A stretch of DNA of 64,000 bases from Roseivirga spongicola (GTDB lineage Bacteria > Bacteroidota > Bacteroidia > Cytophagales > Cyclobacteriaceae), in assembly GCF_001592965.1 (NCBI RefSeq), contig NZ_LRPC01000001.1:930001-994000 (forward strand), written 5' to 3'. This document shows, piece after piece, positions 25,385-32,016 of this stretch. Position 1 is the stretch's first letter; each line of letters starts with the position of its first letter. Made by a program: the position numbers and the translations under genes. A model generated the notes under the pieces. The model saw only the letters and a list, made by a program, of their open reading frames with translations. It did no database searches and was not told where the DNA came from.

Positions 25385-25400
25385 TGTTCCACGTGAAACT
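25385..25400. other. parS-like site 1
   Basis: TGTTCCACGTGAAACT differs at one or two positions from the ParB-binding consensus TGTTnCACGTGAAACA. It lies between ybeY and mnmG, 38 bp from a second, perfect copy. Confidence 0.7.
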
Positions 25401-25422
25401 TTAAGATGACTTTTTCACTTAT

Positions 25423-25438
25423 TGTTCCACGTGGAACA
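25423..25438. other. parS site 2
   Basis: TGTTCCACGTGGAACA is a perfect 16-bp palindrome equal to the classical parS of Caulobacter and Pseudomonas. ParB spreading from such sites near the origin directs chromosome segregation. It is 20 bp upstream of the mnmG start and about 4.4 kb from the proposed oriC. Confidence 0.85.
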
Positions 25439-25457
25439 GTTGGTTAAAGAACAAGGT

Positions 25458-27323
25458 ATGTATCCAAAGTACGATGTAATAGTAGTTGGTGCTGGGCATG
25501 CAGGATGCGAAGCAGCAAACGCAGCTGCCAAAATGGGTTCAAAGGTTTTATTAATAACCATGAACATGAACACCATTGCGCAAATGTCTTGCAACCCAGC
25601 AATGGGAGGTGTAGCCAAAGGACAAATAGTTCGTGAAATTGACGCATTAGGCGGAATGTCAGGCATAATATCTGACAAGTCTATGATTCAATTCCGCATG
25701 CTTAATAAATCGAAAGGCCCTGCAATGTGGAGCCCTCGAACACAAAACGATCGAATGCGATTTGCTGAAGAGTGGAGGCTCGCTCTAGAGCAGAATCCAA
25801 ATGTAGACTTTTGGCAAGAAATGGTTACGGGCATTACCTACAGGGATGGAAAAGCTACTGGAGTAAAAACAGGAATGGGAATAGACTTTGAGGCTAAAGC
25901 AGTGATACTTACCTCAGGTACATTCCTAAATGGTATCATACATATTGGTGAAAAGCAGTTTGGCGGAGGTAGAACTGGAGAGCATGCCGCTAAAGGTATC
26001 ACCGAACAACTAGTGCAAATAGGGTTTGAAGCTGGTAGAATGAAAACTGGAACTCCACCAAGAGTTGACGGCCGCTCACTTGATTACTCCAAAATGGAGG
26101 AACAAAGGGGAGATGAGCAACCTGAAAAGTTCTCCTTCAGCTCCGAAACCAAGCCATTGACAGAGCAAAGAAGTTGTTTTATCACCTATACCAACCCAGA
26201 AGTTCACGAAACCTTAGAGAAAGGATTCGATCGGTCACCAATGTTCAATGGAAGAATTCAGGGTATCGGTCCACGATATTGCCCATCTATAGAAGATAAG
26301 ATCAACAGGTTTGCAGAACGTAATAGGCATCAGATCTTTGTAGAGCCAGAAGGGTGGAACACTGTAGAAATCTATGTCAATGGTTTCTCAACGTCTCTAC
26401 CAGAAGACATTCAATATGAGGCTATCAGGAAAATTGACGGCTTCGAAAACGTCAAAATGTTTAGACCGGGTTATGCCATAGAGTATGATTACTTTCCACC
26501 AACACAGCTTAACCTGACCCTAGAAACAAAGCTGGTGGAAAATCTATACTTCGCTGGGCAAATCAACGGAACCACAGGTTATGAAGAAGCAGCTTGCCAA
26601 GGTCTTATTGCTGGCATAAATGCACACCGCAAAATTCACTCAGAAGATGAATTCACTCTCACTAGGTCCGAAGCATATATAGGTGTGCTTATCGATGATC
26701 TCATCAATAAGGGTACTAATGAGCCTTATAGAATGTTCACTAGTAGGGCAGAGCATCGTATACTTCTTAGGCAAGACAATGCTGATTTGAGGCTAACCGA
26801 AAGAGGGTTCAATATCGGATTAGCAAGCGAAGATCGCCTTAAGCAAACCAAAGAAAAGCAGAGACAACTCAACCTGCTTATCAATGATCTTCATCAGAAA
26901 AAAGTAGATCCAGATATGGCAAATCCAATGTTGGAGTCTCACAATACCGCGGCTATTCAGCACAGAACAACCCTGAATAAACTTGTTAAGAGACCACAGC
27001 TCGATATTAATAACCTAAAAGAAATAGGAGAGGATTATGCCACCTACCTCAATAAGTATGACAAGCATATTATTGAGTCAGCTGACATTCACATCAAATA
27101 TGAAGACTATATCGATAAGGAAATGAAGCTTGCTCAGAAGATGAATGAGCTTGAAAATGTTAAGATTTCAGACAAACTCAACTACTCTGATATCACAGCA
27201 CTTTCTGCCGAGGGTAGAGAAAAACTCAACAAGATTAAGCCATCCACCTTGGGACAAGCTTCTAGAATCAGTGGAGTTTCTCCTGCCGACATTTCTGTTT
27301 TGATGGTTTACATGGGAAGGTAA
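25458..27323 (+). CDS. mnmG: tRNA uridine-5-carboxymethylaminomethyl modification enzyme, FAD subunit
   Basis: A 621-residue FAD enzyme (GidA) that with MnmE modifies the wobble uridine of certain tRNAs. The FAD-binding GxGxxG appears as VVVGAGHAGCEAANAA at the N terminus; later blocks include MSCNPAMGGVAKGQ, GTFLNGIIHIGEKQFGGGR, MKTGTPPRV and the C-terminal SAEGREKLNKIKPSTLGQASRISGVSPADISVL. I choose the ATG at 25458 over a TTG at 25422, because the latter would translate through the parS palindrome and the family begins close to the FAD motif. Position next to parS and near oriC is common for this gene in many bacteria. Confidence 0.96.
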   Translation: MYPKYDVIVVGAGHAGCEAANAAAKMGSKVLLITMNMNTIAQMSCNPAMGGVAKGQIVREIDALGGMSGIISDKSMIQFRMLNKSKGPAMWSPRTQNDRMRFAEEWRLALEQNPNVDFWQEMVTGITYRDGKATGVKTGMGIDFEAKAVILTSGTFLNGIIHIGEKQFGGGRTGEHAAKGITEQLVQIGFEAGRMKTGTPPRVDGRSLDYSKMEEQRGDEQPEKFSFSSETKPLTEQRSCFITYTNPEVHETLEKGFDRSPMFNGRIQGIGPRYCPSIEDKINRFAERNRHQIFVEPEGWNTVEIYVNGFSTSLPEDIQYEAIRKIDGFENVKMFRPGYAIEYDYFPPTQLNLTLETKLVENLYFAGQINGTTGYEEAACQGLIAGINAHRKIHSEDEFTLTRSEAYIGVLIDDLINKGTNEPYRMFTSRAEHRILLRQDNADLRLTERGFNIGLASEDRLKQTKEKQRQLNLLINDLHQKKVDPDMANPMLESHNTAAIQHRTTLNKLVKRPQLDINNLKEIGEDYATYLNKYDKHIIESADIHIKYEDYIDKEMKLAQKMNELENVKISDKLNYSDITALSAEGREKLNKIKPSTLGQASRISGVSPADISVLMVYMGR

Positions 27324-27327
27324 AACA

Positions 27328-28191
27328 GTGAAAGAAATAAACGAATGTCCGGTTTGTCAACAAACTAAGTTCAAGGATTACCTTGAGGTAGAAGATCACT
27401 TTGGCTCCAAAGAAAGCTTTCAACTAAAGCAGTGTACTAGTTGCGAAACATTAAGTACAAACCCGCAACCAAATGTTGACGAAATAATACCTTACTATAA
27501 GTCTAACAATTACATCTCACACGGAGATTCTGTAAATCCTGTATTCGACTTAGCTTATAAAACCGTTCAACGGCAAAATCTACAATACAAGAAAAAGCTG
27601 ATTGAAAAATATACCCTAGGGAAAAACCTTCTTGATTATGGTTGTGGAGCAGGATCGTTTCCCCATTTCATGCAGTCCAAAGGCTGGCAAGTAACGGGTA
27701 TAGAGCCAGATGATTCTGCAAAGAATCAGGCGCTAAGCAAAGGGATAGATGTTATTGAACTAAGTAATCTAAAGAGAGAATTTGATTGCATAAGTTTATT
27801 CCATGTACTCGAGCATGTTCATGACTTAGATACGACACTGAACAAACTTATCAGTCATTTATCCAAAAACGGAGTACTGGTGCTGGCCTTACCCAACTAC
27901 CAATCATATGACGCCAAGCACTATCTAAATCATTGGGCAGGCTATGATGTTCCTAGGCATCTATACCACTTCAATCAGAAAAGTATGTTTAGCCTAGCAA
28001 AGAGATTTGGTTTGAATATTGTTTCAACACATCCTTTAAAGTTCGATAGCTATTATGTGAGCATCTTATCAGAAAAATATAAGAATGGTAAGAGCAATCT
28101 GTTCAATGCATTTCGAATTGGATATAAGTCTAATTCCAAAGCAAAACGCACTAAGGAATACAGTAGCCTTATTTACATACTGAGCAAATGA
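27328..28191 (+). CDS. class I SAM-dependent methyltransferase with N-terminal zinc ribbon
   Basis: A 287-residue protein. The N terminus has CPVCQQ and, about 30 residues on, CTSC, forming a small zinc ribbon. The methyltransferase motif I is NLLDYGCGAGSFPHFM with GIEPDD as the acidic end of motif I/II, and FHVLEHVHDLDTTL and LALPNYQSYDA follow, as in the Methyltransf_23 group. The substrate is unknown; relatives act on sugars, lipids or small molecules. The start is GTG at 27328, five bases after mnmG, and the stop overlaps the next gene by ATGA, so it is in one operon with mnmG and the lipoprotein gene. Confidence 0.87.
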   Translation: MKEINECPVCQQTKFKDYLEVEDHFGSKESFQLKQCTSCETLSTNPQPNVDEIIPYYKSNNYISHGDSVNPVFDLAYKTVQRQNLQYKKKLIEKYTLGKNLLDYGCGAGSFPHFMQSKGWQVTGIEPDDSAKNQALSKGIDVIELSNLKREFDCISLFHVLEHVHDLDTTLNKLISHLSKNGVLVLALPNYQSYDAKHYLNHWAGYDVPRHLYHFNQKSMFSLAKRFGLNIVSTHPLKFDSYYVSILSEKYKNGKSNLFNAFRIGYKSNSKAKRTKEYSSLIYILSK

Positions 28192-29807
28192 GAAAAAGCA
28201 TCCCATTCATAATTCTAGCCCTAATCAGTTTCATAGTGGGCTGTGCAAATATCAGTACACCACAAGGTGGACCAGAAGACGAAACCCCACCAGTACTTTT
28301 GAGCTCAGTCCCAGAACAAGGTCAAACTAATTATCAAGGTCAGAGTATATTCTTAACCTTTGATGAATGGGTAAACACCAAGAACATTGAGACCGATATT
28401 ATTATTACTCCCCGTGTTACTGGATCATTTAAGACAAGAGTAAAGAAGAACACCGTTGAGCTTTCATTCTTTGAACCGTTTCGTGAAAACACCACTTATT
28501 CAGTAGGCTTTGGATCTACCATTCAGGATATAACAAACAATAATCCCGCACAGAATCTAAACCTTAGTTTCTCAACAGGGGCTTACATAGATTCATTGAC
28601 TATTTCTGGCAATGTTAAAACACTCTTAGATCAAGAGCCGGCAGAAGATGCCCTAGTCGCCCTATACTTTGCCAATGATTCAACCGACATACTTAATGGT
28701 GTAGCCTCATACTTTAGTATCACAGATACATTGGGCAATTATAAGTTCGTAAATCTACCTGCAGGAGATTACCGGTTATATGCCACCAACGATAAAAACA
28801 ATAATAATAAAGCAGACTCCAAAGATGAGAAGTACGGTTTCTACCCAGATACATTACAGCTGAATTCTAACCTAGAAGGTATAAACCTCACCATACAAAA
28901 TTTGAATACCACAGAACTCAGAAAGCTTTCATCAAGGCACTTCGGAGCCTATTACGACATAACATTCAATAAACAACTTACTGACTTTCAATTAGTTAAT
29001 AACGAAAATCTATCTTTTCAACCCGTAGGAGATGACAAAATCCGATTCTATAGAAATGGTAGAAATTATGGAGATACCCTAAACTTAATCTATCAGGCCA
29101 CTGACTCTTTAGAATATGTCTTACAGGACACTGTAAAGCTCTATTTTACAGATTCTAAAGTTGAAAAAGCCGATTTCACCATCTCCACAGTACCAAACAG
29201 ATCGCAAGCCTTACCTGGCGATACCTTAGTTTTTGAGTTTAGCAAGCCATTAACAGACTACAACCTGGATAGCATTAACATTACTATAGACAGTACTCAA
29301 ACAATTGACCTGAACAGCGATGCCTTCAAGTTCAATCAATATCGAACCGAGCTAAATACGGGTATTACACTAACTGAACTCCTCACCAGACAGAATCCTC
29401 AGATGAATATCTATACAGGTAGGGGAGCATTTATCTCAGCAGATGGAGATAGTTCAAAGGTTATAGAAAAAGCCTACAACTTCACGGAATCCAGTGAAAC
29501 AGCATCCATCACAGGAAAGGTAACTACTGATGCACCTAACATTATTGTTCAGCTGTTGAGCGCATCTAATAAAGCTGTAGTAAGAGAATCATACTCAAAA
29601 GATTTTAGCTTTCAATATCTACCAGCGGGCAGGTATATGGTAAGAGTTATTGACGATAGAAATGGAAACAGAAAGTTAGATATTGGCAACATGCTAACAC
29701 AAGAATTACCAGAAGATATTCACTACTACTTCGACTCATACTATCAAACCAAGGTTATCGAAGTAAGGAAAAACTGGGAGAATACAGATACCAACATCAG
29801 TTTCTAA
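28188..29807 (+). CDS. Ig-like (SbsA/Big_5) domain lipoprotein
   Basis: A 539-residue lipoprotein: the signal peptide ends at a lipobox ISFIVGC (Cys19). A Big_5/SbsA-type Ig-like domain follows (about 34-125; ETPPVLLSSVPEQG...STGAYIDSLTI), then a carboxypeptidase-regulatory-like module (about 145-215) with ITDTLGNYKFVNLPAGDYRLY and NDKNNNNKAD, a region of further beta-rich repeats, and a similar C-terminal module (FQYLPAGRYMVRVIDDRNGNRKLD). These are Ca-rich beta modules found in surface proteins of this phylum; no enzymatic motif is seen. It overlaps the methyltransferase by four bases and ends at the edge of the proposed oriC. Confidence 0.85.
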   Translation: MRKSIPFIILALISFIVGCANISTPQGGPEDETPPVLLSSVPEQGQTNYQGQSIFLTFDEWVNTKNIETDIIITPRVTGSFKTRVKKNTVELSFFEPFRENTTYSVGFGSTIQDITNNNPAQNLNLSFSTGAYIDSLTISGNVKTLLDQEPAEDALVALYFANDSTDILNGVASYFSITDTLGNYKFVNLPAGDYRLYATNDKNNNNKADSKDEKYGFYPDTLQLNSNLEGINLTIQNLNTTELRKLSSRHFGAYYDITFNKQLTDFQLVNNENLSFQPVGDDKIRFYRNGRNYGDTLNLIYQATDSLEYVLQDTVKLYFTDSKVEKADFTISTVPNRSQALPGDTLVFEFSKPLTDYNLDSINITIDSTQTIDLNSDAFKFNQYRTELNTGITLTELLTRQNPQMNIYTGRGAFISADGDSSKVIEKAYNFTESSETASITGKVTTDAPNIIVQLLSASNKAVVRESYSKDFSFQYLPAGRYMVRVIDDRNGNRKLDIGNMLTQELPEDIHYYFDSYYQTKVIEVRKNWENTDTNISF

Positions 29808-30153
29808 CTTGTGAATAACTCCTTTTCATGATGTGGATTTCCCCAAAACTATACACCAACACAATCCACATCATGAGTTTTACCACCAAACTTGAATTCC
29901 ATTCACATAATATCCTTAACTCATCCACATCGGTCTCAGTAAGCTAACATATTCACAAAAAACACACGTTATCAACAAAGTTTTATAACTCATTGAAAAT
30001 CTATAAAATACAAGACGATAAAATGTGAATAACGATCATTTCATTACCGCATCACTAACAACCCACATGGATAAGTTGAATAACTTGAGTTATCCACTTT
30101 TACACAGGCCTAATAGAAATGATAAAAAATTATTTAATATTTAATTTAATATA
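29808..30153. other. oriC: putative chromosomal replication origin (oriC)
   Basis: This 346-bp gap holds many DnaA-box-like 9-mers. Exact matches to TTWTnCACA: TTATTCACA at 29810-29818 (minus), TTATTCACA at 30024-30032 (minus), TTTTACACA at 30098-30106 (plus). One mismatch to TTATCCACA or TTATTCACA: TCATCCACA at 29921, ATATTCACA at 29949, TTATCAACA at 29969 and TTATCCACT at 30090. Weaker ones: AAATCCACA at 29832 (minus), CAATCCACA at 29862, CCATTCACA at 29899 and CATGGATAA at 30066. The boxes at 29832 and 29862 sit in a 13-bp inverted repeat (29827-29839 and 29863-29875). The last two boxes abut a GGCC tract and then 34 bp of pure A/T (30122-30155), a likely DNA unwinding element. parS sites lie 4.4 kb away. 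This is a strong pattern; GC-skew would settle it. Confidence 0.85.
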
Positions 30154-32016
30154 ATGGGTATGTGGAAACTGTTAATAAGTCTGAAAAAGCCTCTTGTCAT
30201 CCTTCTCATCTTGTTTGCCACATTTTCCAATGTAAAGGCTCAATCGAGTGATCCAGTAAAAATTGCAGAAGAGTATTTGAGCCAAGGAGATGTTGACAAA
30301 GCTCGAAGCGAATTTGAGAAGCTTGCCAAAAGTCGAGAGTACATTCCCAGAATTCACGAATCTTATTTTAAACTCCTACTTGCTGAAAAGGAGTTCGGTG
30401 CTGCAGAGAAATATCTCAAATCTGTTTTAAGGCAAATGAAAGGCAATTTCAGGTATGCCATAGATATGGGAGTTTTATATCGAACCATGGGTGAAGATGA
30501 TAAAGCTGATAAATACATAGATGAGCTTACAGACGAGATCATGGAAGATAGTGATCCGAGTATCAAAATGAACAATATCCGAATTTTAGCTCAATTACTA
30601 TTTGAAAAGAATTTTAGAGATAAAGCTATCGATGCTTACAAGAAGGGTAGAAGCAGTGTTAAGAGTAATGATCTCTTTGCCCTAGACTTAGCTTCGGTTT
30701 ATCGGGTACTGAATGAAAAGGAAAATATGGTCACAGAGTACCTTAATTTTTCTAAGTCTAACCCTAGAAATATAGGCTTCATTAAAAACTCATTTCAGAG
30801 GTATCTCATAGAACCAACAGATATGGACACCCTAGAAATTGTGTTGTATGACTTTATTCAGAAAGAGGCTGGAAATCCTGTTTTCAATGAGCTATTAGTT
30901 TGGACTCATTTGCAACAGAAGAATTTTTCTGCTGCCTTACGGCAGGCTAGAGCCCTAGACAGAAGACTGGCTAATAACGCTCAAAATATTTTGGAGGTGG
31001 GCATGGTATCTTTCGAGAACAAAGATTTTAAAACAGCCACACAAGCCTTCGGATTCATTACCTCAGATTTTCGAGAAAGTCCGAATATCCGATTAGCCGA
31101 GCGCTACTCCCTTTTAGCCGAAGAAGAAGTTGTGAAAACAACATACCCTGTAGATACAGCTGCGGTGAGAAAACTGATAGAAAAGTATAAGACCTACCAA
31201 GAAAACTCTCGAGATATCTATTCGGCCATGGAGGCTCAAAGAAGAATAGCCCTTTTACAGGCCTTTCAGCTTAACGAAATAGTTCAAGCTATATCAACCC
31301 TTCAGAACCTGTTAGAAAATCCTGTAGGCAAGCACAGAGTGGTTGCAGAGGCTAAGATGGACCTGGCAGACATATACCTATTGGATGAACAGCCTTGGGA
31401 ATCCATTTTATTATATGGCCAGGTAGAAAGAATGTTTAAGGATGAACCCTTAGGTTATACAGCTAAACTTAAAAGTGCTAAGCTTTCATACTTCAAAGGG
31501 GAGTTTGACCTTGCTCAGAGTCATTTAGACATTCTTAAGTTGGCCACTTCTAGAGAAATAGCCAATGATGCCCTAGATCTTAGCATTCTCATAAAGAACA
31601 ATACGGTCTTTGATACCACCAACTTAGTAATGCAAGAATATGCCAATATTGAACTCATGATTTTTCAAAATCAGAAGCAAGAAGCTTTGGTGGCAATGGA
31701 CTCAATGCTTACCAAACACAATGGCCACTCTATTTGCGATGAGGTATTATATCTAAAGGCTCAAACCTTGAGGGAATTAGGTAGGTTTGAATTGGCTTTA
31801 GAACCTCTCCAACAAATCGGTGAATTGTATGACTATGATATTCTGGCCGATGATGCTTTGTACTTATCAGGAATTATTCTGCAAGAAGATCTGGATCGTG
31901 AGGAAGAAGCAATGAATATTTATTCAAATTTGCTCACCAAATTTAAAGGAAGCATTTATGTGGCTGAGGCGCGTAATAGGTTCCGGGAACTACGTGGAGA
32001 TTTTAATAATCAATGA
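30154..32016 (+). CDS. exported tetratricopeptide-repeat protein
   Basis: A 620-residue protein with a signal peptide (after MGMWKLLISLKKP, a long hydrophobic stretch to KAQ), then many helix pairs of TPR type over its length, for example VKIAEEYLSQGDVDKARSEF, AEKYLKSVLRQM, AKMDLADIYLLDEQPW and AEARNRFRELRGD at the end. TPR proteins scaffold protein complexes; this layout resembles TPR proteins of the cell envelope. The ATG at 30154 or 30160 both fit. Its start follows directly on the A/T tract of the proposed oriC, so its promoter may overlap the unwinding element. The next gene starts immediately after the stop codon. Confidence 0.87.
   Translation: MGMWKLLISLKKPLVILLILFATFSNVKAQSSDPVKIAEEYLSQGDVDKARSEFEKLAKSREYIPRIHESYFKLLLAEKEFGAAEKYLKSVLRQMKGNFRYAIDMGVLYRTMGEDDKADKYIDELTDEIMEDSDPSIKMNNIRILAQLLFEKNFRDKAIDAYKKGRSSVKSNDLFALDLASVYRVLNEKENMVTEYLNFSKSNPRNIGFIKNSFQRYLIEPTDMDTLEIVLYDFIQKEAGNPVFNELLVWTHLQQKNFSAALRQARALDRRLANNAQNILEVGMVSFENKDFKTATQAFGFITSDFRESPNIRLAERYSLLAEEEVVKTTYPVDTAAVRKLIEKYKTYQENSRDIYSAMEAQRRIALLQAFQLNEIVQAISTLQNLLENPVGKHRVVAEAKMDLADIYLLDEQPWESILLYGQVERMFKDEPLGYTAKLKSAKLSYFKGEFDLAQSHLDILKLATSREIANDALDLSILIKNNTVFDTTNLVMQEYANIELMIFQNQKQEALVAMDSMLTKHNGHSICDEVLYLKAQTLRELGRFELALEPLQQIGELYDYDILADDALYLSGIILQEDLDREEEAMNIYSNLLTKFKGSIYVAEARNRFRELRGDFNNQ

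Follow-up and report, generated by a model that had tools for sequence, protein, structure and literature searches.

We place the chromosomal replication origin (oriC) of a Roseivirga-type bacterium (Cytophagales, Bacteroidota), with high probability, in a 346-bp gap between an Ig-like gene and a TPR-repeat gene (Table 1). The window, i.e., the whole stretch of DNA that was analyzed, comprises 64,000 nucleotides (positions 930001 to 994000 of contig C1) of a 4.478-Mb draft genome in 33 contigs, and the gap lies at 960 kb on C1. A first-pass annotation, made from the letters of the window, had already labeled this gap a likely oriC. The label is well supported by a cluster of DnaA boxes, a BUS pattern, a nearby parS pair, the trend of sampled GC skew, and recurrence of the arrangement in relatives. 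This places the origin of a Roseivirga-type genome and provides a practical marker by which to recognize oriC in draft genomes of relatives, where dnaA misleads: a box cluster and a BUS coming after the mnmG-methyltransferase-Ig block. Such a marker would make it easier to estimate growth rates from read depth and to construct oriC plasmids.

DnaA boxes and BUS-like elements in the gap

The three exact TTWTNCACA boxes and the four one-mismatch boxes described in the first-pass annotation are all present, the latter all on the plus strand (Table 1), and its weaker boxes are represented by 10 more gap sites with two mismatches. The claim of a density far above chance was likewise borne out. Dinucleotide-shuffled versions of the gap (n = 2,000) averaged 0.11 exact boxes; three or more exact boxes occurred at a frequency of 0.0005, and seven or more boxes with ≤1 mismatch occurred at a frequency of 0.002. 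Away from the gap, 346-bp stretches of the window held at most 1 exact box and at most 4 boxes with ≤1 mismatch; those overlapping the gap held up to 10 of the latter (29877 to 30222, which extends into the TPR gene). Across the window as a whole, TTWTNCACA shows no enrichment (7 observed versus 8.2 expected), and it is thus the clustering that is unusual. The density scan covered 1.18 Mb of the genome (26%, not randomly chosen), and its top-ranking region, 29921 to 30222 (score of 12), overlaps the gap. The runner-up in this portion was the region upstream of dnaA (score of 10), and the next ones scored ≤6; the remainder of the genome was scanned for BUS and tandem patterns only.

Conservation of individual boxes was scored on an 18-row genus alignment that includes the genome under study, with a shift of ≤3 bp tolerated, a setting that favors matches (Table 1). 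The inverted repeat containing two boxes, which had also been proposed, exists as a perfect repeat, but its arms are 14 bp rather than 13 bp long and its boxes are two-mismatch sites. By eye, we could not make out this repeat in any of the remaining 17 rows of the alignment. A promoter scan returned 4 sites versus 2.9 in shuffles, the same scan returned no terminator, and blastn gave no plasmid match to the gap.

Table 1. Positions of the features discussed in the text (window coordinates unless a contig or locus is named)
Feature	Position	Strand	Basis or conservation
Second parS, one mismatch	25385..25400	.	Consensus search of genome
parS TGTTCCACGTGGAACA	25423..25438	.	Sole zero-mismatch consensus site in genome
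mnmG (gidA), usual origin-side neighbor	25422..27323	+	Pfam GIDA
Methyltransferase gene	27328..28191	+	Pfam Methyltransf_23
Ig-like (Big_5/DUF2141) gene, left neighbor of gap	28188..29807	+	Pfam; upstream of gap in 76/78 named loci
Putative oriC (DnaA-box cluster and unwinding region)	29808..30153	.	346-bp gap from Ig-like gene to TPR gene
DnaA box TTATTCACA, exact	29810..29818	-	≤1 mismatch in 12/18 same-genus rows
Perfect inverted repeat, 14-bp arms 29826-29839 and 29863-29876	29826..29876	.	Holds two two-mismatch boxes
DnaA box TCATCCACA, one mismatch	29921..29929	+	≤1 mismatch in 9/18 same-genus rows
DnaA box ATATTCACA, one mismatch	29949..29957	+	17/18 same-genus rows; among the most conserved positions
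DnaA-box-like TTATCAACA, one mismatch	29969..29977	+	9/18 same-genus rows
DnaA box TTATTCACA, exact	30024..30032	-	≤1 mismatch in 16/18 same-genus rows
Upstream box of BUS tandem pair, TTATCCACT, one mismatch	30090..30098	+	≤1 mismatch in 18/18 same-genus rows
Downstream box of BUS tandem pair, TTTTACACA, exact	30098..30106	+	≤1 mismatch in 15/18 same-genus rows
GGCC spacer, tandem boxes to trios	30107..30110	+	Sequence
DnaA-trio-like TAA TAG AAA TGA TAA AAA	30111..30128	+	Triplets 1-3 fit NAN rule; fourth (TGA) does not
34-bp A/T-only run, presumed unwinding element	30122..30155	.	Reaches TPR start codon; trio-like stretch merges into run
TPR-repeat gene, usual right neighbor, replaced in some genomes	30154..32016	+	Pfam
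Second DnaA-box cluster, upstream of dnaA	C1 about 1390831-1391094 (L001:1111-1374)		2 exact and 6 one-mismatch boxes in 264 bp

At its right end, the cluster runs, as previously described, against a GGCC tract followed by a 34-bp run of only A and T, the only A/T-only run of at least 25 bp in the window. The order of elements here is that of a BUS: tandem boxes, a 4-bp GC spacer, three NAN triplets, and 12 bp from the upstream box to the trios. In all but one of the 18 same-genus rows, the tandem pair is followed by TAATA, the exception having TAGTA (read by eye). According to the available text of PMC8287927, the BUS search rule looks for a DnaA box accompanied, within 16 bp, by three or more NAN triplets. 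Boxes are most often arranged as a tandem pair, and the distance from the better box to the trios peaks at 10 to 13 bp, a range that includes the 12 bp found in the gap.

From the genus alignment, we derived the pattern TWTNCACNTWTNCACANNNYTAATA, which has one exact match genome-wide, namely, the gap, and one other match only when two mismatches are allowed; the tandem box pair alone occurs twice in the genome. With ≤1 mismatch, the pattern was retrieved from 36 of 194 genomes of the order, compared to 11 for a reversed control pattern. On cross-reading, the 36 comprise 26 genomes with the match beside the TPR gene (including all 10 exact matches), 3 with the match beside the Ig gene only, and 7 with the match elsewhere. 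A BUS pattern of the TWTNCACNTWTNCACANNNYTAATA type is too strict to serve as a general oriC detector.

By analogy with the BUS model, binding of DnaA, unwinding, and firing at the gap can be pictured as follows. DnaA would bind the boxes spread across ∼300 bp, and the tandem pair (30090 to 30106) would guide it over the GGCC spacer onto single-stranded TAA-TAG-AAA trios. The adjoining A/T-only run would then open towards the TPR gene and the helicase would be loaded, after which new origin copies would be segregated via the two parS sites 4.4 kb away.

parS, strand asymmetry, and the dnaA region

The proximity of mnmG and parS to the gap, another observation of the first-pass annotation, was confirmed, with the parS pair ∼4.4 kb from the gap. 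A search of the whole genome at ≤1 mismatch gave two sites, at 25385 and 25423 in the window. One of these precedes the listed mnmG frame and the other overlaps its start (TTG at 25422). In 20 of 25 relatives, mnmG matches begin at query residue 9 to 16, and the true mnmG start is therefore probably further downstream.

GC skew was sampled in stretches of one contig, C1. A skew minimum had been predicted at the gap; sampled skew does turn from negative to positive around it, but the position of the turn is only loosely fixed. Of the 23 stretches on the left side of the gap, 18 have negative skew; of the 17 on its right side, 15 have zero or positive values. Raw skew is best fitted by a change point at 890 kb, and 710 and 930 kb fit almost as well; for strand-normalized fourfold sites, the best point is 1034 kb, followed by 975 and 960 kb. 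Gene orientation on C1 counts against the oriC reading, since minus-strand coding predominates beyond ∼1014 kb, opposite to the leading-strand bias that would go with an origin at 960 kb. A candidate orientation bias of TTWTNCACA to the right of the gap on C1 (18 plus and 0 minus among the matches listed) was rejected, as the matches listed omit minus-strand places and sampled stretches on that side gave 6 plus and 10 minus.

The complete relative G030 has a genome of 5.49 Mb, with the 5′ end of its TPR gene at 1.7496 Mb. All 10 stretches sampled there up to 1.771 Mb have negative skew and all 8 between 1.82 and 4.22 Mb have positive skew; at 4.70 and 5.20 Mb, the sign is negative once more. 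The flip thus falls within ∼70 kb of the equivalent locus, and the return falls near the opposite pole. Coding in this genome is minus-heavy in all 10 stretches left of the switch and plus-heavy in 6 of 8 to its right. Of the two other complete relatives, G045 has raw skew without a switch and a weak shift only in fourfold sites of plus-strand genes, and G040 shows no skew switch.

Clusters of DnaA boxes can titrate DnaA by themselves, and the gap could be read as a datA-like titration site rather than an origin. We consider this explanation extremely improbable given that the gap also holds ordered BUS elements and an A/T run and that both the parS pair and the skew trend point to it.

A rival with somewhat more in its favor, though still very unlikely, locates the true origin upstream of dnaA, as in many bacteria, and makes the gap a secondary DnaA-binding site. 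The dnaA gene is on C1, 431 kb from the gap, so that an origin in the gap is not adjacent to dnaA. The 2 exact and 6 one-mismatch boxes of the second cluster lie within 264 bp directly beside dnaA, and its density score is near that of the gap (10 versus 12). On the other hand, the 500 bp upstream of dnaA contain no A/T run of at least 18 bp, and genome-wide pattern searches gave no BUS, tandem-box, or parS match in this region; the only parS pair of the genome is the one beside the gap. Strand-normalized skew is already positive in four stretches at 1.31 to 1.53 Mb, and in G030, dnaA lies at 4.83 Mb, while the change to positive skew falls between 1.77 and 1.82 Mb.

The dnaA cluster includes a facing box pair that only part of the genus shares. 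A dnaA match was obtained in 58 of 59 genomes, and 30 loci were examined, two of which (G023 and G029) have <500 bp of upstream sequence. Exact boxes were detected upstream of dnaA in 10 of 18 same-genus loci, 8 of which have a facing pair of exact boxes ∼16 bp apart; among the 12 loci from other genera, 3 have an exact box, each time a single one. An upstream A/T run of at least 18 bp was missing from 26 of the 30 loci, including that of the genome under study. Because there is no parS, BUS match, or skew switch at dnaA, self-regulation of dnaA is the likeliest role of its upstream cluster, which probably serves that purpose.

Comparison with known origins

Origins of this kind are already known. 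Neither this particular origin nor its gene order was found described in the open-licence papers searched. The closest mechanistic parallel is the BUS-type oriC of Bacillus subtilis, with DnaA-boxes 6 and 7 and DnaA-trios, which in the available text of PMC8287927 shares with the gap tandem boxes, a 4-bp GC spacer, and at least three NAN triplets. Unlike the B. subtilis origin, the gap is not beside dnaA, its two tandem boxes share one base, and its BUS is a prediction from sequence. Separation from dnaA is described as common among Bacteroidetes origins in the accessible part of PMC4755523, where the oriC of Prevotella intermedia resembles the gap: it contains multiple DnaA boxes, coincides with a skew switch, and is not near dnaA. 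For a Flavobacteriaceae strain, an Ori-Finder call also has mnmG at the origin (PMC12843772, as excerpted). Unlike in the Prevotella and Flavobacteriaceae cases, gene order and BUS are traced here through Cytophagales relatives.

The proximity of mnmG recalls the gidA-mioC oriC of Escherichia coli, where mnmG/gidA is near the origin (PMC10225481, in the portion available). In contrast to E. coli, methyltransferase and Ig-like genes stand between mnmG and the gap in our genome, and the TPR gene follows. The E. coli BUS score is reported as relatively weak in the text available from PMC8287927. The combination of parS clusters and skew has been used to place origins, including that of a Bacteroides species, according to the accessible text of PMC10197239.

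The cluster in relatives with and without the TPR gene

The TPR gene was found in 54 of 59 genomes and, across the order, was matched in 153 of 194 (the genome under study is counted in both). Upstream regions were totaled for 53 TPR genes, including that of the genome under study, with G029 left out, as its contig ends 14 bp upstream of the gene. These regions contain 135 exact boxes versus 7.0 expected; 43 of them are box-enriched relative to shuffles (p ≤ 0.05), and the enrichment in the other 10 is not significant.

A second collection was assembled from named records. A single TPR protein as the query of contigs gave no match, and an alignment-based query was used, from which we took the best 80 of 550 stretches encoding a relative, among the matches listed. 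L195 and L200 were dropped for too little upstream sequence, leaving 78 usable loci from records spanning Roseivirga, Fulvivirga, Marivirga, Persicobacter, Sporocytophaga, and Reichenbachiella. In these 78 loci, drawn from the best of the matches listed, the 600 bp upstream of the TPR gene hold 218 exact boxes versus 13 in 600 bp inside it, and at least 5 boxes with ≤1 mismatch are found in 73 of 78 upstream regions versus 9 of 78 controls. Within the same best-match set, the Ig gene is found upstream in 76 loci, mnmG (within 6 kb) in 68, and a parS-pattern site in 53, counts that include contigs too short to show mnmG, the Ig gene, or parS. The order parS-mnmG-methyltransferase-Ig-cluster-TPR was found in most of these 78 best-match relatives. 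Five loci have fewer than 5 boxes: L233, L235, and L244, which retain the Ig gene and mnmG, and L236 and L241, which have neither upstream. The last two are MAG loci in which the TPR gene is not beside Ig or mnmG and the box cluster is missing.

The cluster extends as far as the TPR start codon and, in most of the relatives examined, is followed by the TPR gene; the boxes might thus be a promoter region through which DnaA controls that gene, and not an origin. Genomes in which cluster and gene are decoupled make this reading barely tenable. Nine same-family genomes lack a detected TPR match; seven of these were examined, and in all seven the cluster is still found after the mnmG-methyltransferase-Ig block, with 8 to 12 boxes (≤1 mismatch) confined to about 400 bp. 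In three of these genomes, the gene that comes next was typed; the products are an AMP-binding enzyme, a MarR regulator, and a protein without a Pfam match. G047 and G048 have a TPR gene elsewhere without upstream boxes, and 9 boxes stay behind the Ig gene in each; in G047, an ABC transporter gene follows the cluster. G055 shows the same decoupling in weaker form, with 6 boxes, none exact, and then a DUF6580 gene, which brings the typed genes after such clusters to five. Conversely, the TPR genes of L236 and L241, with no Ig gene or mnmG upstream, have no cluster. As the cluster stays after the Ig gene in 7 of 7 examined genomes where no TPR gene was detected, it is not a TPR promoter.

Returning to the gap as oriC, a broader scheme can be drawn for the order, which we offer as speculation and hold to be rather unlikely as a whole. 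In most Cytophagales examined, the origin would be fixed in the arrangement parS-mnmG-methyltransferase-Ig-oriC with an exchangeable next gene, and part of Roseivirga would have added a remote box cluster at the dnaA promoter, which may couple DnaA supply to firing (two-site control). Two-site control by an origin and a dnaA-promoter cluster was not found for this group in the open-licence papers searched.

A convincing box cluster after mnmG is absent from eight genomes of the order (G054, G041, G056, G037, G038, G043, G057, and G074), in which the origin probably relies on other boxes or has been relocated. G039 and G058 have a weak cluster after mnmG. Finally, G048 (locus L263) is 60% GC locally, and its 9 boxes, 2 of them exact, lie ∼3.2 kb after mnmG and ∼35 kb from the TPR gene.
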